DNA of 64,000 bases from a virus. Location: positions 110,259 through 174,258 of the IMG/VR virus record IMGVR_UViG_3300032268_000986, one strand, 5' to 3'. Position numbers and translations under genes: made by a program. Shown piece by piece: positions 46,393 through 64,000 of this stretch (positions are counted from its first letter, which is position 1; the number at the start of each line of letters is the position of its first letter). The notes below the pieces were generated by a model. It saw only the letters and a list, made by a program, of their open reading frames with translations, made no database searches and was not told the origin of the DNA.

Positions 46393-49300
46393 CTATTTAA
46401 CTACGCCTTCGTCTAGCTCGTCTTCGGTCATGATTGGCACAACAGACATTTCTGTGCCGTATGCATAACCGTTGTTCTGCATCCACTGAGTGGCCACACG
46501 ATTTGCATCACGTTGCTGATTACCAATACCTGAGAATCTATACAACTCATTACCATCAGCATCTAGAATCTGCCAAGCACCGGAGAATGTGCCCGGAGTG
46601 GCTCGTTGCTGTGCCAAGGCTGCTGTGCTTCCAGGGTAGACCACCTCTATATCTGGTTCAATGTCAATGATACCATTTTGAGAAGAATCTTGACCAGTCT
46701 GACGAGTTCTCACTTCAAACTCATTGGGATTGTGTCCGTTTTGGCTTAGCCAAGTTCGTGCTTCGGATTCTGCATTGCGTCGGTACGTGCTGGGCGGGTT
46801 GAAGTAAACTTGATTGTTGCTTCTGCTGGCCACTTCCCAGGGCCCAGGACCGGTGGGTCTCAGCGGGTTAGTATCTGTCTGAGTGTTGGTCACACCGGGG
46901 CCACGCCGCATGCCAAATGTTCTTATAGCATCCTGAGTGTTCAATCTATGCGGCCCGTGCGCACGATAATCATCTAGGCGAATCTGAGCTTCGTCATCGT
47001 TGCGTAGCTGTGCAGTGTCAACTACCGCACCAGTTTCTCTATTGTAGATTTCGTAATCAACACTGGTGTCCACACCTTGTGGCTCTGGTGCAGCAGGTTC
47101 AATCTCTTGAACTGTTAATTCAAGATCATTTCCAGGGTTCCTTATGTTGTAATCCTGTATCCAGGCTCGAGCAGCGGCCTGGTCTCTAAATCGTCTAGTC
47201 ACAGACTCGCCGTCAACATTCATTGTTGCAAAGCGATCAAGCACTGCTACCCAAATACCCCAATTGCCAGTTGGTGTGCTGTCTTGTTCTTCAGCTGGGC
47301 GAATGGGCTGAGCCTGCCAGCCTTTGTCTCTAAACCATTCTTGTTCAGTGGCACCGCCGGTGTTCAAATTCCATTGTTGTCGGGCTTGTTGCATGGCTTC
47401 AAATTTACTAGAAGCAATGACCTCTATGCCTTGACTTTGATATGGAGAATCACTTGCACCAGTGACCTTCCATACAAATGGTCTATCCAAACTTTTATTA
47501 TCAACAGGCTCTTCATACGGACGCACTGGCTTGGCCACAACTGATTGTCTGGTGTTGGCCCAGCTGGGATAGCCATCTGCACCCAAGGCTTTTTCAATGG
47601 CTTCTTCTTTAGTGGTGGCAACAACTTCTATACCGGCTAGACTTTGCGGGGGATTTGTCACGCTCCACCACATTTTTTTACCGCTAGTCGCGCCGCGTTT
47701 GACCTGTCGTGTCAGCTGAGCCTGCTTGACAAAACTGCGCAGGGCTGCCTTGGGAATCTTGCCGGCTACGTATTCGGAAAAATATCTTATAGTGTCAGCG
47801 TCATCCTTGTTGTTTTCAGTCAACAGCTTGTACAGCTTCTTGAGGTATTCTTCTCTGTATGCTGCAGGATTCAAGGCAGCACTCATGGCCACTGTGAATC
47901 GCAACAGGGTGTTTTCAATTTGATCAAAGTTTTCGTCCAGCCAGTCGCCACCAGGTGAGCGGAATTCAATGTGCCCGTCCTTGGTATTGATTGATGTGTA
48001 CTTGCTGGTCACACCCGAGTGTATGGCCTTGGAAGCCAGGCTGTCCAAGTTGCCTTTCATTTTTTCCAGCAGTTGTTGAGCCGAGTCTGGATCGTTGCGC
48101 ACCTTGCCCTTGACCATGTCCAGGGCAGACTTGGCATAGGTGTTGCCAGCTCGGCCAAACAGATCCAGCACATATTTGTCGCCCATCAGCAGGGCCAGTT
48201 TTACAAAGTCCAGATTCTCTCTGCTGTAGCCCGGCACTGAAATATTGATGTGCAGGCCTGTGGAGTCATTGGTATAGCAGCCATATTCCTTGGCCCAGGC
48301 CTTGACCTTGTTCAAGTCGCTGAGTATTTCGTCAATGGGCAAGGGCGGGCTCACAAACTCCAGGCCAGTGTCGCCAGGATTATCGCCATCCAAGCTGCCG
48401 TCTGGTTCCACAATATAGTGTTGTGATGTTGGGCTAGGACGCGGTACTCGTCCTGAATGATAGCTGCCACTGGCCTTGGTGTCACGACCAATGGCGTTTT
48501 CAAACTCCTGTGCCACATCTTCAATGCTGGCTTCGCCACCGCCTACAGTGGTCCAGTACGGCCAAGAAATCTCATAGGCATTTTCTACACCGCTCATGCG
48601 ATCCAAGTCTTCGGCATCCAGCCAGTCGCTTTCGTCGTAACTTTCAAAATTTTCTTCACGGAACTCTTCAAAAGCATCACTACTGCCGGGGTCGATATGC
48701 AGGTTGGCAATGTATACCTCTAGTGCTTCCTCACGAGCTTCGCCCTCCAAGCCGTCGGGATTCCACTCAGATTCGTCTACATTGTTGGGCACCCATTCTT
48801 CTAGGAATTCTTCGCCACTGCGTTCCCAGTCTCGATAGAGTTTGTCATCCAGCCATTCCTGGAAATCATTCTGCATTCTTTCACGCAGGCGTTCTACTTC
48901 TCTACGACCATTGTAGTCACCATCATGGAAGAAGGCCACAGCATCATCAATGCTGCGGCAGCGTTCGTCTTGGTCATAGTCTGGCTCCAGATCACCGTCA
49001 TCATCGTTTTCGGTGTTGGGCACAATCATTTCAAATTCCATGCCGGCAATGGCGCCGGTACGGGCAGCTTCCTGCCGCAGGCTTGACGGACTCATGTTGA
49101 TCTCACCCAGGAACTCATCTTCCAACAAGGCAAATTCCCAATGTAGGTCATTGGCAAGCTCTTCACGCAGGTTGGCAGTCTTCATCAACAGTGCCGGGCG
49201 GCCTTGACTGTCAGTGTCCAAGGCCAGCTTGTTGGCTTCTCGGCCCACTTGTCCAGGCTTGATATCCACAGTCAAGGCCATGCTGTAGCGCGGGTCACGT

Positions 49301-50514
49301 GCTTCTTTTTTGTTTCGGGGAATGTAGCCCGATGCACTTTCTTTGATGGGTGCATCATCAAACTGTTCAGGATGTGCGACGGCCCAGTCACGCATGATAA
49401 TGCCGGCTCTAGCATTGGCATCGTTTTCCCAGCGTGATCCAGTTTCTCCTGCGTCTGCAGGCAAGGGGCGAGTCTGATGCTGGGCGCAGTGTACCAGTTC
49501 ATGTGCCACGGTACGCAGTACATCCAGTATGTGTCGATTTGTCAAGCTCACATTCAGCGTGTGTGCTTCAGGATCGTAGCGACCAAAGCTGTGATTGCTG
49601 GTGCCCCAGTCAGGGTCAGTGTGCAACACCACACGTGGTAAAGGATCAATATCTAACCGGTTGGCCACATGTTGTATAAAATCATTGATAGTGTCTGGAT
49701 CCAAGTCATCTTCACAGAACATCTTGGTACTGGGGCTGACACCGTCGGGCGTGGATCCTGCATCTTCAGCAAAGCCATAACGGAAACGCTGACGCGGCTT
49801 GTTTTGTTCACGCAGACTCAGCTCATGATCACGAGCAGCAGTTCTAGCATCACGCAAGGCCTTGATGCAGCCCTTGGTTCTTAGAATTTTAAAAACAATG
49901 TTTTCGCAGCCAAACTCACCATGCTGGTCCAGCCCACTCTGGCGCATGTTTCTAATCTTGTCCCATAGCCGGCCCATGGCATCTGCATCACCCGACTGAA
50001 TGGCGCTGTGAATGCGAGCGTCTAGGTCTTCTACCTTGGCTCGCACACAGGTGTCATCAATACGAGCACGTTTTTTACGTGGTACTTGTATCCAACGGTC
50101 ATTCATGACCGAGTATTCGCCTTGGCTTACCGGAGCTTCGGCAGCATTTTGCACATAGAGTTCAACTGGTATCTTGCCAATGGACAATGTGTGTTCGTCA
50201 TTGTACTGATATTTCTTGGCGTTGAACAGTTCTTGATACACATCATCCTGGCTGGGAAAATCCACCACAAGATGTAGATCAATATCTGACTGCGGAGTAT
50301 AACTGAAAGCAGCATTGCTGCCGCTCACAGTTATGTCTTTTACCTGTAGGTCAGATACACCTAGAAACTCCCGAAAATCAGCAGCAATTTCCAGGAGTTT
50401 GTCACGTACCTCGGGCAACATGTTTTCATCTCGTGCCCAAATCACAGGATTGAGACGATTGTGAAATTTTACTGCGTCGGTTAATTTAAAAGAATCCAGC
50501 TCATGAATGTTCAT
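46393..50514 (-). CDS. Giant fusion: nucleotidyltransferase, zinc metallopeptidase, amidoligase and repeat modules (1373 aa)
   Basis: Domains in order: a MNT-type nucleotidyltransferase (G65-S66, S76-D77-I78-D79), a zinc metallopeptidase with H338-E-L-V-H342, a linker module, and an amidoligase-like GCS/ATP-grasp-type region from about residue 490 (G-M-E-F-E-M, G-L-E-F-V-S-P-P, G-L-H-I-N-I-S-V, H-I-E-F-R-S-P-G-G). Finally come about six tandem modules of 50-60 residues, each with an aromatic strand and an E-A-x-x-x-A helix. The start MNIHELDSFK is weakly capsid-targeting-like; the start lies 5 bases from a TAAATA box. It reads like a packaged effector polyprotein. Confidence 0.75.
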   Translation of the reverse strand: MNIHELDSFKLTDAVKFHNRLNPVIWARDENMLPEVRDKLLEIAADFREFLGVSDLQVKDITVSGSNAAFSYTPQSDIDLHLVVDFPSQDDVYQELFNAKKYQYNDEHTLSIGKIPVELYVQNAAEAPVSQGEYSVMNDRWIQVPRKKRARIDDTCVRAKVEDLDARIHSAIQSGDADAMGRLWDKIRNMRQSGLDQHGEFGCENIVFKILRTKGCIKALRDARTAARDHELSLREQNKPRQRFRYGFAEDAGSTPDGVSPSTKMFCEDDLDPDTINDFIQHVANRLDIDPLPRVVLHTDPDWGTSNHSFGRYDPEAHTLNVSLTNRHILDVLRTVAHELVHCAQHQTRPLPADAGETGSRWENDANARAGIIMRDWAVAHPEQFDDAPIKESASGYIPRNKKEARDPRYSMALTVDIKPGQVGREANKLALDTDSQGRPALLMKTANLREELANDLHWEFALLEDEFLGEINMSPSSLRQEAARTGAIAGMEFEMIVPNTENDDDGDLEPDYDQDERCRSIDDAVAFFHDGDYNGRREVERLRERMQNDFQEWLDDKLYRDWERSGEEFLEEWVPNNVDESEWNPDGLEGEAREEALEVYIANLHIDPGSSDAFEEFREENFESYDESDWLDAEDLDRMSGVENAYEISWPYWTTVGGGEASIEDVAQEFENAIGRDTKASGSYHSGRVPRPSPTSQHYIVEPDGSLDGDNPGDTGLEFVSPPLPIDEILSDLNKVKAWAKEYGCYTNDSTGLHINISVPGYSRENLDFVKLALLMGDKYVLDLFGRAGNTYAKSALDMVKGKVRNDPDSAQQLLEKMKGNLDSLASKAIHSGVTSKYTSINTKDGHIEFRSPGGDWLDENFDQIENTLLRFTVAMSAALNPAAYREEYLKKLYKLLTENNKDDADTIRYFSEYVAGKIPKAALRSFVKQAQLTRQVKRGATSGKKMWWSVTNPPQSLAGIEVVATTKEEAIEKALGADGYPSWANTRQSVVAKPVRPYEEPVDNKSLDRPFVWKVTGASDSPYQSQGIEVIASSKFEAMQQARQQWNLNTGGATEQEWFRDKGWQAQPIRPAEEQDSTPTGNWGIWVAVLDRFATMNVDGESVTRRFRDQAAARAWIQDYNIRNPGNDLELTVQEIEPAAPEPQGVDTSVDYEIYNRETGAVVDTAQLRNDDEAQIRLDDYRAHGPHRLNTQDAIRTFGMRRGPGVTNTQTDTNPLRPTGPGPWEVASRSNNQVYFNPPSTYRRNAESEARTWLSQNGHNPNEFEVRTRQTGQDSSQNGIIDIEPDIEVVYPGSTAALAQQRATPGTFSGAWQILDADGNELYRFSGIGNQQRDANRVATQWMQNNGYAYGTEMSVVPIMTEDELDEGVVK
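46394..46399 (-). promoter_or_regulatory. Late-promoter-like TAAATA box, 5 bases before a start
   Basis: TAAATA on the minus strand, 5 bases before the ATG at 46388. It overlaps the TAG stop of the preceding gene. Confidence 0.4.
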
Positions 50515-51525: not shown

Positions 51526-52104
51526 CTATTTGACGCCAATGATCATGAAACGAGTATATGCAGTTTCAGGATCTTCAAGAGATAGGCTGCCTGAATACAA
51601 TATCTGACTCAAGGGAAATTGTTGTTGAATATCTTTTGCACTGAAAAACGGGTTCTCTTCCACATGGTCACGTGCCTGCATGGCCACTAGTGTTCCCGGA
51701 GGAATATTCTGAAACCAGTCACTGCCCGCTATGTCGGTCAGGCTCAGATTGATCACACTGCCTTGGCCGTCCAGTTGTTGGTAGTCAAGACCATTGGCGT
51801 CTTTGCGCATGTGTTCAACGCCCTGATATCCCAGTTGATCCAGCATGGTTTTACCTGTGAACAAACGTTCACTGTTGGTTTCTACATTGATTATCTTGTC
51901 TACCTCCAGGGCAGACTGGCGTCTTATCAGCAGAGCCAGGTTACTGTACCAAGACCCCAGCACATACATCACAGAAACATAATCGGTAATCTTGGACAAC
52001 TCCTGGATCAACCACAACTTGCTGAATACCAGGTCTGGTGTAAAACTACCACTGAAGCTGTAGCCTGAGCTTTCGGCCAGGCCCACTACATCTTCCACAA
52101 TCAT
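51526..52104 (-). CDS. Methyltransferase-fold phage protein (192 aa)
   Basis: Y-V-S-V-M-Y-V-L-G-S-W-Y-S-N-L-A-L-L-I is a motif I-like strand-loop, D-K-I-I-N-V-E-T-N gives the acidic ribose-binding residue, and V-I-N-L-S-L-T-D-I matches the next strand. G-T-L-V-A-M-Q-A-R-D follows. This fits a small class I methyltransferase or spermidine-synthase-like fold. ATGA overlap with the large modular protein upstream. Substrate unknown. Confidence 0.55.
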   Translation of the reverse strand: MIVEDVVGLAESSGYSFSGSFTPDLVFSKLWLIQELSKITDYVSVMYVLGSWYSNLALLIRRQSALEVDKIINVETNSERLFTGKTMLDQLGYQGVEHMRKDANGLDYQQLDGQGSVINLSLTDIAGSDWFQNIPPGTLVAMQARDHVEENPFFSAKDIQQQFPLSQILYSGSLSLEDPETAYTRFMIIGVK

Positions 52105-53660
52105 TTTTTACGACCCTGACAGTGAGCTCGCTGACTGAATCCCCGGGGACTGGCGCAGTTGATTGAACTTTTGTATTTTTGACTCCACTTTTCATCAATG
52201 TAGTCTTCGTCCACGGGCTGATTTTCTCTACGTTGATAGCTGGCAGTCATGCCACCCACAAAGTTTTGTGCATCAACTTCGGTCATGTCAGGCTTGTCCA
52301 TCAGGGGACCACCTGTGACCCAGGCATCGCAGGTTCTGCGACTGGCACATTTGAACTTTAGAAACTTGCAGTATCCCAGGTCGCCGGCGTCAATCACACC
52401 TTCTGCATCTGCAGGCGAGTCAGCATCAATACCTTGCGCAATGCAGTCCAAGGTGTCTTGGCGTATGTCAAATGCCGCACAGTTGCCGCACAGGCTTTGT
52501 TTTGCTTCTTCTGCACTGTCAAGATTCCACTCGTCAACTTTTTTCATCCAGAACTTGCGGTTGGACATGTCTGGGTTGAGTGGGCCATATCCGTATTCGT
52601 CAATGGCTTTTTGTCTGTTCTTGAGATTCAGTGTGATGTCCTGTGTGGCAGGCGGACACTTCTTTTCAGCCTCCGCCACACCTTGTGATTCAAAATTATC
52701 TATATTTCTAGAAACTCTACGCTCACTGCCTTGAGCAGGGAATCCTGAACTTTGTGATTGCGGCGCAGGTCTTCCTGGGGCATACTTAGATAACTTTTCA
52801 GTGGCTTTTTCTCTAGCAATAGTCATCCACATTTGTTGTTGTCTGCGATCAATAGGCTGGCCACGTGTGGCAACTATTTGTTCATAGATTGCTCGTGCCA
52901 TTTCCTCTATGTCTTTATTGTGTTGCACACGAGGATCATCTTGACGCATGTTTTGGAATTCTCTTGAAACATCAACAGGACGTGATTGTGCTATTGCAGA
53001 TCCAGCTGCACCTGCCACAGCCGCCGCACCTAGTCCACGTAAGAATCCTCTACGGCTCAAGTCTTCGTCAAGTTCACCGCCAATGGCTGTGTCCAACAGT
53101 TTGACAACCGTGGCAGCTAGTCGGGGATTGGTTTGTGTCTTGGGATACAAGCTCATTACCAGAGCTGTTTTGCGTTGATCATTTAACCGGGGCCAGGCAG
53201 CGCGAATTTCTGTGGCCGATGTCATTCCGGGACCAAATTCCACAGTGGGCAAGTAGGCCATGTAGGCATGCCGGGCAAATGGTTCTAGTCGGCGAGCACC
53301 CATGAGTGGTTGCAGGTATGCAGGTGATCCGTCTTTTTTTACACCACCGGCCTGGGGTGGTTTGTTGGCGTCTTTTTCACTGCGTACAAAGATCAGTCGA
53401 TCCTGTGCAGGGTCAAATTGAGCAGTGATTTCCTCGGCACGAAATGGTGATTTGACCTGCACAAAATGTCCAGGCTCAACTCCAGCCAACTTGGCCAGTT
53501 TTTCTTTTACAGCAAATGGAAATGGTCTAGCCGATGTGTCATTTGTGGCTGCCACAAATACTTTGGCGTCGGGAAATGCTCTGCGGGCAGAGTTGTAAAG
53601 GGCTGCATGGCCAGCATGAAAAGGGTGAAACCCACCCGGTATAATAACAACGGTAGTCAT
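52101..53660 (-). CDS. Modular nucleotidyltransferase with internal Tat-like signal and Cys-rich modules (519 aa)
   Basis: Residues 1-175 form a cytidylyltransferase-like domain (P-G-G-F-H-P-F-H-A-G-H at 8-18, then M-T-S-A-T-E-I-R). At 201-225, directly after E-L-D-E-D, lies S-R-R-G-F-L-R-G-L-G-A-A-A-V-A-G, a twin-arginine signal-like stretch. The C-terminal 190 residues carry G-V-A-E linkers and Cys-rich modules (C-P-P-A-T-Q-D-I, C-G-N-C-A-A-F, final A-S-P-R-G-F-S-Q-R-A-H-C). Start 5 bases from a TAAATA box. Probably packaged in the virion. Confidence 0.7.
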   Translation of the reverse strand: MTTVVIIPGGFHPFHAGHAALYNSARRAFPDAKVFVAATNDTSARPFPFAVKEKLAKLAGVEPGHFVQVKSPFRAEEITAQFDPAQDRLIFVRSEKDANKPPQAGGVKKDGSPAYLQPLMGARRLEPFARHAYMAYLPTVEFGPGMTSATEIRAAWPRLNDQRKTALVMSLYPKTQTNPRLAATVVKLLDTAIGGELDEDLSRRGFLRGLGAAAVAGAAGSAIAQSRPVDVSREFQNMRQDDPRVQHNKDIEEMARAIYEQIVATRGQPIDRRQQQMWMTIAREKATEKLSKYAPGRPAPQSQSSGFPAQGSERRVSRNIDNFESQGVAEAEKKCPPATQDITLNLKNRQKAIDEYGYGPLNPDMSNRKFWMKKVDEWNLDSAEEAKQSLCGNCAAFDIRQDTLDCIAQGIDADSPADAEGVIDAGDLGYCKFLKFKCASRRTCDAWVTGGPLMDKPDMTEVDAQNFVGGMTASYQRRENQPVDEDYIDEKWSQKYKSSINCASPRGFSQRAHCQGRKK

Positions 53661-54211: not shown

Positions 54212-54877
54212 TTATTTAGCCTGTATTGGTAGTGTTTTTCTAATGATCCCGGGAGACACTAGATTCAACATTTGAATGTCACGCACATCGTCATGATCAA
54301 TAAAAAAGTGACTCTGCACATAAACATGCCGGGATGCGGCGAGCCGCTCGCGAAACCCCGGGGTCAAACGATAGCAATCGCCTCGATTCAGCAGAAATCT
54401 TCGCAGTGCATGCCCTTGCTCTTGCTCCAGCATGCGACCACGGAAATAACTGCGATACCGGTGTTGTGGTTTTTCCAGTATCACAACATCTCGGGGCAAT
54501 GCTACCCGAGCTCGAGTACCGTTTCCGTCTGGCTGTGCAGCCACCAGCCGGTCAAGATCTGCTAGACTGTTGGTGTACACGTACATCCAGTCACTGTAGA
54601 AAATACGCTTGTGGGGTTCTTCAAATGCCGCCAACACATCACACATGTCGTGCAATCGTGCCACCCAGTTGTCATCAATGACTCTAGCCGGGTTTGACCA
54701 GCTGTATTTCAACAGTAGAGTGTTTGTTGCACCAACGGCGGTACTCACAGCTTCATGGGTGAGAGTGTGCAAGCACCTGGCTCCACGCATGGCAAAGTTG
54801 TAGCCAAATTCGTACTGATCATAGAACAGCCGATCTCGCACACGATCTTCAAATGTTGTCAAGTCTAATGATGCCAT
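54212..54877 (-). CDS. Conserved phage hypothetical protein (221 aa)
   Basis: Aromatic-rich alpha/beta protein: Y-D-Q-Y-E-F-G-Y-N-F, R-I-F-Y-S-D-W-M-Y-V-Y, Y-R-S-Y-F-R-G-R-M-L, L-L-N-R-G-D-C-Y-R-L-T-P-G-F, F-F-I-D-H-D-D, and a final V-S-P-G-I-I-R-K-T-L-P-I. The R-G-R and D-H-D-D blocks are conserved-looking but no family is known to me. It overlaps the ClpA-like end by 29 bases. Confidence 0.55.
   Translation of the reverse strand: MASLDLTTFEDRVRDRLFYDQYEFGYNFAMRGARCLHTLTHEAVSTAVGATNTLLLKYSWSNPARVIDDNWVARLHDMCDVLAAFEEPHKRIFYSDWMYVYTNSLADLDRLVAAQPDGNGTRARVALPRDVVILEKPQHRYRSYFRGRMLEQEQGHALRRFLLNRGDCYRLTPGFRERLAASRHVYVQSHFFIDHDDVRDIQMLNLVSPGIIRKTLPIQAK
54213..54219 (-). promoter_or_regulatory. 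Late-promoter-like CTAAATA box, 7 bases before a start
   Basis: CTAAATA on the minus strand, 7 bases before the ATG at 54205; no Shine-Dalgarno. Confidence 0.5.
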
Positions 54878-57113
54878 CGCTGCCTACTGTTTGTGTGCTG
54901 GGGGAAATTACCACAAATTCAACTTGATCATCTACTAGATCAGCCACAACTTCGCAATCTCTAAGTTGATCAAACAAGATGCGTTTGCTGAGTGGCACAC
55001 GCAACAACTCGTCAATCTTGCGGCTCAAGGGTCTGGCACCCAACTTGCTGTCGTAGCCCTTTTTGGCCAACAAGTCCACGGCAGCTTCGCTCACAGTGAG
55101 TCGAATGTTGCGCTGGGCCAGGCTGGTTTTGAGATCGTCTACAAATTTTACCACGACCTTTTTAATGGACAAATTGTCCAGCTTTTGGAACTTGACCACT
55201 GAGTCAATACGGTTTCGCATTTCGGGCTTGAAAAACTCTTTTACTGCTCGATCATCTTCGCCGGTTTTCTCAAAGCTACCAAAGCCAATGTTGTTGGTTT
55301 CACTATCTCGGGCGCCCAGGTTTGATGTCATGATGATGATGCAGTTCTTGCAATTGGCTTTCTTGCCATTTGAACTGGTGATAACACCTTCGTCCAGCAT
55401 CTGCAACATGATGTTGGTGACGTCGGGGTGAGCCTTTTCAATCTCGTCAAACAGCACAATGGCAAAGGGATTTTTGCTGAGATCTGAAATCAGTTTGCCA
55501 CCGCCTATGTTGCCATCTTCAAAACCCACGTAGCCTGGCGGCGCACCAATCAAGCCGCTGACCGAGTGACGTTCTTGAAATTCACTCATGTCGTATTTCA
55601 GCAAGGGCATGTCAAGATTTGCACTCAACAATCGAGCCAGTTCAGTCTTGCCTGTGCCAGTGGGTCCTGTGAACAAGAAACTGGCCATGGGACGCTTGTC
55701 ATTGCCAATGCCAGCGAAGGAAATATACACACGTTCCAGCACTGTGTCCACAGCTGAATCTTGCCCGTATAACTTTTGTTTGATATTGCTTTCAAGTTCC
55801 ACAATTTTGGCTGATCGTTCGTTCTGCAGACGGTCTGTGGGCACACCGGTCACACGACTCAGTTGAGCTTCAATCAAGGCACGAGTAATGGTCACACAGC
55901 CTTGATCCCGCACACGTTCACGAGCACAGGCACCGTCAATCAAGTCAATTGATTTGTCGGGATTCTTTTTGTCATGAATGTAACGATTTGCCAGTTCCAC
56001 AGCAGTGGTCATGGCCTCGGTGTCAATCAACACATTGTGGAATGTTTCCAGGCGTGGTGAGAGACCAATCAGGATCTGTTCTGTGGTCACTGCATCGGGT
56101 TCATCAATGCTGAGCTTGTGAAAGCGGCGCATCAAGGCACGATCTTTTTCAAAGCTCTCGTAAAACTCTTCCCAGGTGGTTGATGCCACTACCTTGAGCA
56201 TGCCCTTGGTGATGGCCGGTTTCAGCATGTTGGCAAAGTCCAAGCTGGAGTTTGATCCAGAACCGGCGCCACGCATGGTGTGAGCCTCGTCGATGAACAA
56301 AATGGTCTTTTTCTTGGTCTCCAAGGCTGCAATCACCTGTTTGAATTTTTCTTCAAACTCACCGCGGTACTTTGACCCAGCCAGCAAACTACCAATTTCC
56401 AGGCTCCACACTTCGTGATCTTTGAGAAACTCGGGCACACGTCCTGCATGAATTTCCTGGGCCAGTCCATCCACAATGGCAGTTTTGCCCACGCCGGGAT
56501 CGCCCACCATGAGCACATTGGCTTTGAAGCGTCGAGCCAACACCGTGATCATGTCTGACAGTTCGGTGCTGCGACCAATCATGGGTTCCAGTTGATTTTT
56601 TGCAGCACGAGCAGACAAATTCATGCAGTATTCTTCCAGCACAGCATCGGCCTGTTGCTCAGACATCACTGCCGAAGATTCTTGACTGTAGTTTTTGCTC
56701 CAGAACTCAACAAATTCTGCTTTCTTCACTCCATACTTGAGCAAGAAATAGTGTGCATGACTGTTGGTTTCGGCCATGATAGACAGATACAAGTCAATCG
56801 TGGTCAATTGACGTCGTCCAGTAAACATCACTTGTACATTGGCGCGATTAAAAATGCGTTCCAGTGACTGTGTTTTTTTAGGTTGTGTGTCTGGAGTGTT
56901 GCTGATCATGCCCACTAGACTGCCAAGATATGCTGTTATGTCAGCATCCAGGTTGACCACGTCGGCACCAAAGCGTTCCAGAGTCTTACGGAATGGGTCA
57001 AATCGAATCATGCTCAACAACAGGTGTTCAGTCAGCACATACTCGTGTTTTTGGTCACGAGCAATTTTCACGGCCTGTTCAACAACAAATTCAATATCGG
57101 GGCTATTTTGCAT
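54849..57113 (-). CDS. clpA: ClpA-like AAA+ unfoldase with ClpP-docking loop (754 aa)
   Basis: An N-terminal Clp repeat domain (T-E-H-L-L-L-S-M-I), first ATPase domain (G-D-P-G-V-G-K-T, F-I-D-E-A-H), second ATPase domain (G-P-T-G-T-G-K-T, L-F-D-E-I-E-K-A-H) and the C-terminal small domain (K-L-G-A-R-P-L-S-R). I-G-F occurs at the position of the ClpP-binding IGL/IGF loop, before K-P-E-M-R-N-R-I-D. No ClpB coiled-coil insert, so it is ClpA/C type. It could direct host ClpP to chosen substrates. AAGGAACC precedes the start at 57113. Confidence 0.92.
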   Translation of the reverse strand: MQNSPDIEFVVEQAVKIARDQKHEYVLTEHLLLSMIRFDPFRKTLERFGADVVNLDADITAYLGSLVGMISNTPDTQPKKTQSLERIFNRANVQVMFTGRRQLTTIDLYLSIMAETNSHAHYFLLKYGVKKAEFVEFWSKNYSQESSAVMSEQQADAVLEEYCMNLSARAAKNQLEPMIGRSTELSDMITVLARRFKANVLMVGDPGVGKTAIVDGLAQEIHAGRVPEFLKDHEVWSLEIGSLLAGSKYRGEFEEKFKQVIAALETKKKTILFIDEAHTMRGAGSGSNSSLDFANMLKPAITKGMLKVVASTTWEEFYESFEKDRALMRRFHKLSIDEPDAVTTEQILIGLSPRLETFHNVLIDTEAMTTAVELANRYIHDKKNPDKSIDLIDGACARERVRDQGCVTITRALIEAQLSRVTGVPTDRLQNERSAKIVELESNIKQKLYGQDSAVDTVLERVYISFAGIGNDKRPMASFLFTGPTGTGKTELARLLSANLDMPLLKYDMSEFQERHSVSGLIGAPPGYVGFEDGNIGGGKLISDLSKNPFAIVLFDEIEKAHPDVTNIMLQMLDEGVITSSNGKKANCKNCIIIMTSNLGARDSETNNIGFGSFEKTGEDDRAVKEFFKPEMRNRIDSVVKFQKLDNLSIKKVVVKFVDDLKTSLAQRNIRLTVSEAAVDLLAKKGYDSKLGARPLSRKIDELLRVPLSKRILFDQLRDCEVVADLVDDQVEFVVISPSTQTVGSDGIIRLDNI

Positions 57114-57169
57114 ATGGTTCCTTGAAATACTTTCAATAATTTTAACACACTGGCCTGGCTGATGCAACC

Positions 57170-57970
57170 TTATTGGCAGTGTTCCTTGATGGCCTGTGTC
57201 ACAGCGTCGGGCACATGATCGGGTATGTATGCTGTCAGGCGCAGCATGAGATCGCCACGACCTGTGCCAGAATCTTGCAGTCCACGCTGTCGCAGCCGCA
57301 TCACAGTTCCAGGTTGGCTGGCAGCAGGTATGTTGATGGTCAGTTCATTGCCCAAAAAATCACTCAGGTCAACATCGCCGCCTGTGATCAATTTCCAGAT
57401 TGAAATCCTAAAATCAGTGTGCAAGTTCAAACCATCTCGGCGCCACGCAGGATCGGGCTGCACTCGATACTGCACCACAAGGTCTTGTCCCCCGGGCGCT
57501 ACACCACTGTATTGTACATTGTCCCCGTCCTGGATACCACGGGGCACTGAAATTTCCACAGTGGTGGTACCGGCACTGCTGCCAATGGACACACGTCGAG
57601 TGGATCCCAGTGCAACATCACGCAACTGTATAGTGACCGACATGCGAACATGACTGCGTCGAGGCTGTGCGCCACCGGGAAATCCTCCAGTGAATCCACC
57701 CTGACGAAACATGCTGAACAAGTCATTGATGTCCACTCCAGCCGGGTGAAACCCACCACCCCCGCCGCCCTGGAATGGCGAGGGATTGTCATAGGCTGCT
57801 CGTTTGTTGGGATCACTCAGGGTGTCATAGGCTACCTGAATTTCTTGAAATCGAGCTGTGTCGCCACCTTTGTCGGGATGATGCTGGCTGGCCAGTCGAC
57901 GGAAAGCACGTTTGATTTCATCGGCAGCAGCGGTTCGAGCAACTCCTAGAGTTGCATAGTGATCGGTCAT
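57170..57970 (-). CDS. DnaJ/CbpA-type J-domain co-chaperone (266 aa)
   Basis: J-domain at residues 1-65 with Y-x-x-L-G-V, H-H-P-D-K and the F-x-x-I-x-x-A-Y-x-x-L segment. A Gly/Phe-rich region follows (F-Q-G-G-G-G-G-G-F), then two substrate-binding beta domains, and no zinc-finger, like CbpA or class II DnaJ. The start at 57970 has GGACC upstream and a promoter at 57994-58022. It directly precedes the ClpA-like gene, so the pair probably acts together with host DnaK on phage or host proteins. Confidence 0.9.
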   Translation of the reverse strand: MTDHYATLGVARTAAADEIKRAFRRLASQHHPDKGGDTARFQEIQVAYDTLSDPNKRAAYDNPSPFQGGGGGGFHPAGVDINDLFSMFRQGGFTGGFPGGAQPRRSHVRMSVTIQLRDVALGSTRRVSIGSSAGTTTVEISVPRGIQDGDNVQYSGVAPGGQDLVVQYRVQPDPAWRRDGLNLHTDFRISIWKLITGGDVDLSDFLGNELTINIPAASQPGTVMRLRQRGLQDSGTGRGDLMLRLTAYIPDHVPDAVTQAIKEHCQ

Positions 57971-57993
57971 AGAAAAGGTCCAGTACAACATTA

Positions 57994-62339: not shown

Positions 62340-63455
62340 TCAGCAGTTCCACTTGCGCAGTGCCAGAGCCTTGCGAGTGGGTTTACCATTGGGCTTTTTC
62401 ATGGGGCCTTTGACGCCGCCCATTCTGGCACAAAATGATTTTCTGCGCTTGGCTGCTTTGGAACCTGGCTTGAGTTTTGAAGGCTTGGTGGTCACTGCCA
62501 TTTGCAGTTTGCTACCGGGATTCTCTCTGCGATAGCTGGCCACACCCTTGGCATTGAGTCCGCCCTTTTTGCTCTTGCCTTCTTTTCTGCGCCAGGCAGC
62601 AGTTTCATACAGCACGTTGTCTGGCAGGGCTTCAAACTGTTCCCATACTAGATCTTTACTCACACGATTTTTCACTGCCATTTCTTCGGCCAGTTGATCC
62701 ATGGCTTCAAACATCTCATCCACTTCAGGATCCACTTCGTCCGACGCTTCTTCAGAGTACATGTAGTCCCACACTGCGACCAGCATGCTCTTGGCCACAG
62801 CAATCTTTTCCTGGCACCATTCAGGCAAGTTGTCGCCTGAGTCAATCAAGTCGTCGATACCTCGAACAGCACGATCCAGGGTTTCTAGATTGTTGTCGGC
62901 CATGCCGGCTTCGTCGTCATACTCGGGATTGTAGTTTTCTGGCATGGTTTGTTCACCAAAACGTTGACGATAGCTGTTGGGGTTCATTGACGATCTGGTC
63001 CCGACCACAGCATTGCCTTCGCCACTTAATAACAAATCATACATGAGTTTGATTACTTTTAAGGGGCTATTCATTCTTTCCAGGGCGTTTTTAAACCATT
63101 CAACTTTTTCTGGTTTCATTGGCTTGGAACTGGGCTTGCTGATCAGCGCCAGGGCCTGAGCCTTTAGCGTGGACAAGTCTCTGATTTGTTCAAGACGTTT
63201 TAAATCCTCAATATCAAAGTTGTAATCGGCTTTGCCTTCCGCCACACCTTCTGACTTGTTGCCATAGTTGCCAGCGCCTTTTTTGCGGCACTGAACCAGG
63301 CGTCCTGATGCATAGGCTGACGGCCATACTTTTGCACTAGACTTGACCTTGTAGTAACAGGCGTCTTTCTTTTCCATCATCAGCATTTCGCTGAACATGG
63401 GGCCACCACAGTGTGGGCATGACTGTTTGGATTCAACCAAGTCTTTGAATTTCAT
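62340..63455 (-). CDS. Modular basic Cys-containing virion-type protein (371 aa)
   Basis: Start MKFKDLVESK has the capsid-targeting pattern with an L-V-E site. A C-P-H-C-G-G zinc-ribbon-like pair and a W-P-S-A-Y-A-S-G-R-L-V-Q-C-R-K module follow, then G-V-A-E-G linker, a helical module (F-K-N-A-L-E-R-M), an acidic middle, and a C-terminal K-S-F-C-A-R-M-G-G-V-K-G-P-M-K module resembling DUF6321. AAGGAAAAC precedes the start at 63455, which overlaps the upstream stop (ATGA). Function unknown; it looks packaged in the head. Confidence 0.68.
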   Translation of the reverse strand: MKFKDLVESKQSCPHCGGPMFSEMLMMEKKDACYYKVKSSAKVWPSAYASGRLVQCRKKGAGNYGNKSEGVAEGKADYNFDIEDLKRLEQIRDLSTLKAQALALISKPSSKPMKPEKVEWFKNALERMNSPLKVIKLMYDLLLSGEGNAVVGTRSSMNPNSYRQRFGEQTMPENYNPEYDDEAGMADNNLETLDRAVRGIDDLIDSGDNLPEWCQEKIAVAKSMLVAVWDYMYSEEASDEVDPEVDEMFEAMDQLAEEMAVKNRVSKDLVWEQFEALPDNVLYETAAWRRKEGKSKKGGLNAKGVASYRRENPGSKLQMAVTTKPSKLKPGSKAAKRRKSFCARMGGVKGPMKKPNGKPTRKALALRKWNC

Positions 63456-64000
63456 TTGCGTTTTCCTTTGGTACTTACATTTATGGCTGCGCCTGATCGA
63501 TTGGCATTGGGATCTTCTCGGCGCTTTCTTGCGGCTGCACTGGCACGACCCTTTTTGCCCAGGGCATGTGCCTTGGCCTGTGGCAAACACTTGGGCTTGC
63601 CTTCTTTGCTACTGCCTCTGGCACAGTCTCCACGTATTTTGCCGTCGGGTCCAAAACGAACCCATTTTTGTTTGAACCAGTCACGTAGATTTTCTTCCAG
63701 CTCTTGTGTGGACATTTTCTTTTCATATCCCTGCACAGAGGTGGTCTTGTCGGGGTCAGGCGCACCTTGCAATTTGGCAGCTGGCAAAAACTTCCGTATA
63801 CTCTGCAGGGTCAGCGGACCCATCACGCCATCCACATCCAGGTTGGCACGGTACTGTTGATTCAGCATCTGTTGTATTCTGCGAACTTGATCTGACGTCA
63901 TGTCTTGTTCTTCACTCACAGGCACACAATTGGGTACCATTCGGGAACCTTTTTTCTTCATGCCTTGACGACGATATCCGGTCCAGCAGGCTTCCAATAT
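63452..64000 (-). CDS. Modular protein with peptidoglycan-binding-like and DUF5872-like parts (partial, 5' end outside window)
   Basis: The frame is open to the window edge. It includes E-A-C-W-T-G-Y-R-R-Q-G-M-K-K-K-G and R-M-V-P-N-C-V-P, a PG-binding-like repeat (Q-V-R-R-I-Q-Q-M-L-N, D-G-V-M-G-P-L-T-L-Q-S-I-R-K-F), and L-R-D-W-F-K-Q-K-W-V-R-F then a basic K-P-K-C-L-P-Q module and R-E-D-P-N-A-N-R-S-G. It shares module types with 62340, 52101 and 44943. Probably another internal head protein. Ends by ATGA overlap into the next gene. Confidence 0.68.
   Translation of the reverse strand: MLEACWTGYRRQGMKKKGSRMVPNCVPVSEEQDMTSDQVRRIQQMLNQQYRANLDVDGVMGPLTLQSIRKFLPAAKLQGAPDPDKTTSVQGYEKKMSTQELEENLRDWFKQKWVRFGPDGKIRGDCARGSSKEGKPKCLPQAKAHALGKKGRASAAARKRREDPNANRSGAAINVSTKGKRK

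Follow-up and report, generated by a model that had tools for sequence, protein, structure and literature searches.

The 519-amino acid open reading frame at 52101–53660 (-) of the window, i.e., the whole 64,000-nucleotide stretch of viral DNA analyzed here, encodes a polyprotein mosaic in which a twin-arginine (Tat)-type signal lies directly behind a predicted cleavage site. Comparison with related sequences confirmed that this polyprotein architecture is general among its relatives. We consider it probable, at roughly 0.6, that the precursor is cargo that would be cut in the prohead, ejected, and exported by the Tat pathway of the next host.

Modular Architecture of the 519-Amino Acid Protein

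The N-terminus of the protein reads MTTVVIIPGG, and its modules follow each other in the order cytidylyltransferase-like domain, LDE, Tat-type signal with three-helix body, VAE, Cys-rich domain, IDE, and basic C-terminal module. The features are, from the N-terminus onward:

53073..53660 (-): module 1, cytidylyltransferase-like domain, residues 1–196 (Pfam CTP_transf_like, E 1.7e-4, residues 6–76)
53064..53072 (-): LDE junction, residues 197–199, predicted prohead-protease site ([LIVM]xE here in 18/18 anchored relatives)
52989..53063 (-): Tat-type signal, residues 200–224, with RR at 203–204, hydrophobic stretch, and AIA at 222–224 (sub-threshold Pfam TAT_signal match and recurrence)
52671..52988 (-): Tat module body, residues 225–330, three helices and a low-confidence tail (AlphaFold2; block conserved as a unit)
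52671..52679 (-): VAE junction, residues 328–330 (breakpoints of relatives at about residues 330–336 and 325–335)
52278..52670 (-): module 3, Cys-rich domain, residues 331–461 (block 325–467 common to many relatives)
52191..52277 (-): linker, residues 462–490, ending in PVDEDYIDE with VDE at 483–485 and IDE at 488–490 (final block of relatives starts at 488)
52104..52190 (-): module 4, basic Cys-containing C-terminal module, residues 491–519, KWSQKYKSS... (common to cyanophage late-operon proteins)

Searched against PHROGs, the protein gave only weak, cytidylyltransferase-like matches, and module 4 reached up to 77% identity to cyanophage late-operon proteins by tblastn. Pfam detected no peptidase domain in the 519 residues, and no capsid-targeting peptide ending in [LIV]xE was found at the N-terminus. 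By eye, the cytidylyltransferase-type proteins examined share a recurrent DY[ILVM]xE motif close to the C-terminus (52191–52208 in the window); it is a candidate C-terminal targeting motif for proteins of this type that lack an N-terminal capsid-targeting peptide.

Modules Are Exchanged at [LIV]xE Sites

Relatives from viral contigs matched the window protein as separate blocks (residues 1–196, 199–330, 325–467, and 488–519), the ends of which coincide with LDE, VAE, and IDE. Among relatives of the cytidylyltransferase domain, different modules follow the domain and the break lies at about residues 194–201. Anchoring in an alignment was possible for 18 distinct relatives, all of which had an [LIVM]xE tripeptide at the domain end, whatever module followed, compared to a frequency of 11.5% within the domain; the tripeptide itself varied between relatives (LDE, VTE, VAE, LAE, IDE, or VDE). 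Further [LIV]xE tripeptides occur inside the modules of the window protein at residues 51, 251, 258, 353, and 375.

An earlier test of alignment breakpoints over all open reading frames was diluted by tail-fiber repeats, and the test was therefore narrowed to 129 candidate polyproteins and to alignments of at least 75% identity. In this set, 56% of the left and 43% of the right breakpoints fell at [LIV]xE, compared to 13 and 6.5%, respectively, for random positions.

The Tat-Type Signal Recurs Behind Predicted Cleavage Sites

Pfam TAT_signal matched residues 200–220 of the window protein (E 0.0029) with 17.9 bits, which is below the cut-off of 22.7; the cut-off was exceeded in the relatives L123, L056, and L115 and equaled in L086. 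Twin arginine, hydrophobic stretch, and AxA are all present. A sequence-only reading of this DNA had placed a Tat-like signal mid-protein at residues 201–225; the signal is indeed there, although it runs from D200 to A224, one or two residues away from those limits, with ELDED immediately upstream. The same reading had called for both motifs to be followed through homologs, where both proved to be kept and a non-conserved arginine pair was not found.

When 2.9 million viral contigs were scanned with the motif RRGFLxGxGAAA, 70 stretches were returned, which together with the window and a second copy in the same genome (180502–180591 of its record, G000) make up 54 distinct contexts, partly related to one another. 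The motif was internal to the protein in 47 of these 54. An [LIV]xE tripeptide ended 2–4 residues before RR in 46/54 contexts, compared to 8.9% elsewhere in the same proteins, with a spacing of 2 residues in 26, 3 in 14, and 4 in 6 cases. Strict AxA followed in 42/54. When the RR requirement was dropped and more of the hydrophobic stretch was used, the scan returned 28 stretches, every one of them already in the RR set. No cultured phage carrying the Tat module was found, a search in which tblastn with the short signal was possibly blinded by low-complexity masking.

A second polyprotein is encoded in the same genome at G000 179653–181551 (L047 5395–7293), without a match among cultured phages. 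Behind [LIV]xE sites it has two leaders, one Sec-like (LTE/GWKSALGSAALAG) and one of the Tat type (LEEI/DRRGFLKG). A second type of leader beside the Tat one, in which [LV]xE is followed by GWKSALGAAALAG-like stretches and which was seen in the same genome too, looks Sec-type.

The Three-Helix Body Is the Most Likely Exported Unit

AlphaFold2 predicted the helical core of the Tat body with pLDDT >90, and gave low pLDDT for the junction and signal regions, as expected of accessible segments; the predicted structure of the body had no match in the PDB. Signal and body move as a unit of ~95% identity into proteins with unrelated neighbors (L027, L033, and L038). In L091, a 192-amino acid open reading frame consists of MRAQEFVNE, directly followed by a DLTRRGFL... 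signal, a body of 57–59% identity, and a short extra tail. A search with the body only, omitting the signal, found the whole signal at 5 loci, with RR in all of them, while in L143 and L145–L148 the body stands directly behind VAE, MAE, or VTE without a recognizable signal. As the body occurs both with and without it, the signal can be regarded as an address that is separable from the body, which itself starts at the cut site; export therefore is not needed in every phage. The three-helix body, residues 225–330, is most likely the exported unit. Beyond the sequence-only reading, these comparisons point to a general polyprotein architecture and to a Tat leader that is optional on this body.

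The Cys-rich C-terminal part had instead been proposed to use the signal for export. This finds no support, because the VAE junction at residues 328–330 separates the domain from the signal and because the domain mostly lacks a Tat signal in relatives. Short open reading frames with the Cys-rich domain carry their own MRNFINLIEAV-like N-terminus, which resembles a capsid-targeting peptide. Module 3 has conserved cysteines in the alignment. Relatives are annotated as high potential iron-sulfur protein, a name that comes from annotation only. Module 3 had no Pfam match and no significant PDB sequence match, and its structure model was poor.

Other domains were found behind the same signal in relatives by Pfam: GH19 in L101 (4e-8), Peptidase_M48 in L066 (8e-9), and TonB_2, a TonB/TolA C-terminal domain, in L080, L082, and L104 (~1e-17). 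Plausibly, these are envelope proteins.

Head Protease and Genomic Context

A Peptidase_S77 protease of the gp21 family was present in 7 of the 24 records of relatives, all 7 of them at least 200 kb in length, and in 4/4 relatives' records examined it sits in a T4-type head cluster. The major capsid proteins of those relatives contain LxE in the propeptide region, e.g., KYLAE and KYLKE. Searches of the G000 record for gp20, gp21, and gp23 found none, probably because the head operon falls in a break of the record. Its contig ends (L133 1–3588 and L134 14797–18000) match both flanks of the relatives' head cluster, and the cluster therefore probably lies in the unsequenced gap; the record, 343 kb long, probably represents a circular genome interrupted at gp20–gp23.

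In S-CREM2, gp137 was detected in virions (PMC10665884). This protein has its C-terminal module in common with the protein encoded at 62340–63590 of the window, and S-CREM2 gp154 showed weak homology to module 1 (E 0.024).

Beside the 519-amino acid protein, a 1373-amino acid protein at 46393–50514 shows an amidoligase domain, a sub-threshold nucleotidyltransferase-like domain, and ELDEGVVK at the C-terminus; it is probably another cargo polyprotein. ClpA/B-like, DnaJ-like, ClpS-like, and ClpX-like proteins were recognized by eye at 54849–57991 and at L053 9579–11938, a set of chaperones and unfoldases that is unusually full for a phage. TctA/TctC-like transport proteins, also recognized by eye (L046 11799–13951, L047 2992–3951, and L133 11729–12712), hint at a betaproteobacterial host.

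A Proposed Route From the Prohead to the Periplasm

We infer the following course of packaging, cutting at LDE, ejection, and export for the window protein. The 519-amino acid precursor, with its modules joined by [LIV]xE sites such as gp21-family prohead proteases cleave, would enter the prohead of a T4-type jumbo phage as polyprotein cargo. There, the prohead protease would cut it after LDE and leave DLSRRGFL... as a fresh N-terminus. Because the cut would happen in the prohead, the producing cell would only ever hold the Tat signal in an internal, silent form. The fragment would be ejected along with the DNA, refold in the cytoplasm of the next host, and be exported by that host's Tat pathway, with trimming after AIA. 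At the level of sequence, this route is supported by the architecture, the retention of both motifs, the exchange of modules at the sites, the envelope-type domains, and the gp21-family protease in relatives. Against it speak the lack of an N-terminal capsid-targeting sequence in the window protein, the absence of gp20, gp21, and gp23 from the broken G000 record, the bodies without a recognizable signal, the [LIV]xE tripeptides inside modules, and the partial conservation of the motifs as DNA. The suggestion that L-x-E marks a cleavage site gains from the breakpoints, the site kept where the cytidylyltransferase domain ends, and the relatives' protease; that cleavage may expose the Tat signal is likewise favored by the conserved RR and AxA and by the envelope-type cargo.

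T4 provides precedent for the targeting, cutting, ejection, and refolding of head proteins (PMC9026906, PMC9958956). Its internal head proteins IPI, IPII, IPIII, and Alt combine a capsid-targeting sequence with gp21 processing (PMC9026906). The proteins described here resemble them as T4-type head cargo with [LIV]xE processing sites and the logic of ejected proteins, and relatives start with peptides similar to capsid-targeting sequences, e.g., MRAQEFVNE. Unlike the T4 proteins, they join several modules per chain by such sites and bear an export signal behind some of them, and the window protein itself lacks the N-terminal targeting peptide. Many head proteins of the giant phages phiKZ, 201phi2-1, and SPN3US are also cut after Glu by the prohead protease and then ejected, but their motifs belong to a different protease lineage, and no report of exposed export signals was found in the two sources (PMC9026906, PMC10052503).

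Phages and conjugative elements also encode polyvalent proteins, such as P1 DarA and DdrB, which are similarly multidomain, delivered with the genome, and predicted to be separated by proteolysis (PMC5512222). However, these proteins use an embedded peptidase domain, while the cuts in the window protein fit a separate prohead protease; no mention of signal peptides in polyvalent proteins was found in PMC5512222. With bacterial twin-arginine signal peptides the window signal shares the RR motif, the hydrophobic stretch, AxA, and an M-x-RR-like start. Bacterial Tat signals normally stand at the primary N-terminus, whereas this one is internal in the precursor unless the chain is cut. Searches of the open-access literature turned up no description of phage cargo whose Tat signals are exposed by cleavage.

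Alternative Explanations

Cleavage in the head could be real and the hydrophobic segment a membrane anchor, or an aid to an inner-membrane ejection channel, with no Tat export involved. Ejected head proteins of other phages build conduits through the envelope, as in P22 (PMC8402733), and the existence of the same body without any signal also fits this explanation. Yet RR together with AxA, which are kept in most contexts, typify exported and trimmed proteins rather than anchors, and GH19, M48, and TonB-type domains stand behind the signal. We regard such an anchor or channel as unlikely.

The Tat-like stretch and the LxE linker could also be joints for recombination at the DNA level, spread by homologous exchange and of little function in the protein. 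QGVAE recurs as a linker, in the window as QGVAEG at 52671–52685 (-), and this linker is conserved as DNA, with CAAGGTGTGGCGGAAGGC encoding QGVAEG in 37/54 distinct contexts; RRGFL is written as CGTAGAGGATTCTTA in 20/57. The QGVAEG DNA is possibly a recombination joint for module shuffling, and since the motif DNA is partly conserved as such, some of the conservation may reflect descent or recombination. Against a role in DNA only, LxE persists in all three spacing classes, whose residues differ, relatives vary in the residues of the LxE that follows the cytidylyltransferase domain, and AxA and the envelope-type cargo are kept as well. Little function in the protein is thus quite improbable in our judgment, and a recombination role is compatible with a cleavage role, neither excluding the other.

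If translation in the infected cell started internally, the Tat leader could be used and cleavage would be unnecessary. The position two residues before RR does resemble a former start methionine, as in an ordinary M-x-RR start, being I, M, V, or L in 54/54 contexts. However, ATG, GTG, or TTG stands there in only 11/54, among them TTG in the window, and a Shine–Dalgarno-like site was present in 0/11 of these within the interval scanned; the adjacent LxE would also be left without explanation. Codons one base away from a start are over-represented at this position (ATA for 17 of 27 Ile, GTA for 7 of 9 Val), as if internal starts were avoided. On the start-codon and Shine–Dalgarno counts, we rejected an internal start as very unlikely. 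As the residue is shaped like an M-x-RR start and mostly lacks a start codon, we infer that the internal signals derive from Tat proteins, originally N-terminal in their signal, that were captured downstream of a cut site.

A chance motif in an ordinary fusion protein, for which the sub-threshold Pfam score of the window protein might speak, was rejected as exceedingly improbable: RRxFL alone occurred in 0.66% of shuffles of the window protein, but together with a preceding [LIV]xE at most 5 residues away and a following hydrophobic stretch in 0/200,000, and recurrence in 54 contexts makes a chance match very unlikely.

Implications for Phage Biology

Returning to cleavage in the prohead followed by Tat export, the odds seem to us a little better than even that a widespread aquatic group of T4-type phages combines head targeting and prohead cleavage with an unmasked Tat- or Sec-like signal that would direct cargo to the periplasm of the next host, with modules swapped at the cleavage sites and GH19, M48, and TonB/TolA effectors riding along. 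If this is true, head proteins would be delivered past the host cytoplasm into the periplasm by the host's own export machinery, and cleavage by the head protease would be the switch by which the signal remains silent in the cell that makes the phage. It would open a route for early effects on the envelope, such as the exclusion of further phages or wall remodeling, and many unannotated phage proteins would gain a testable role.
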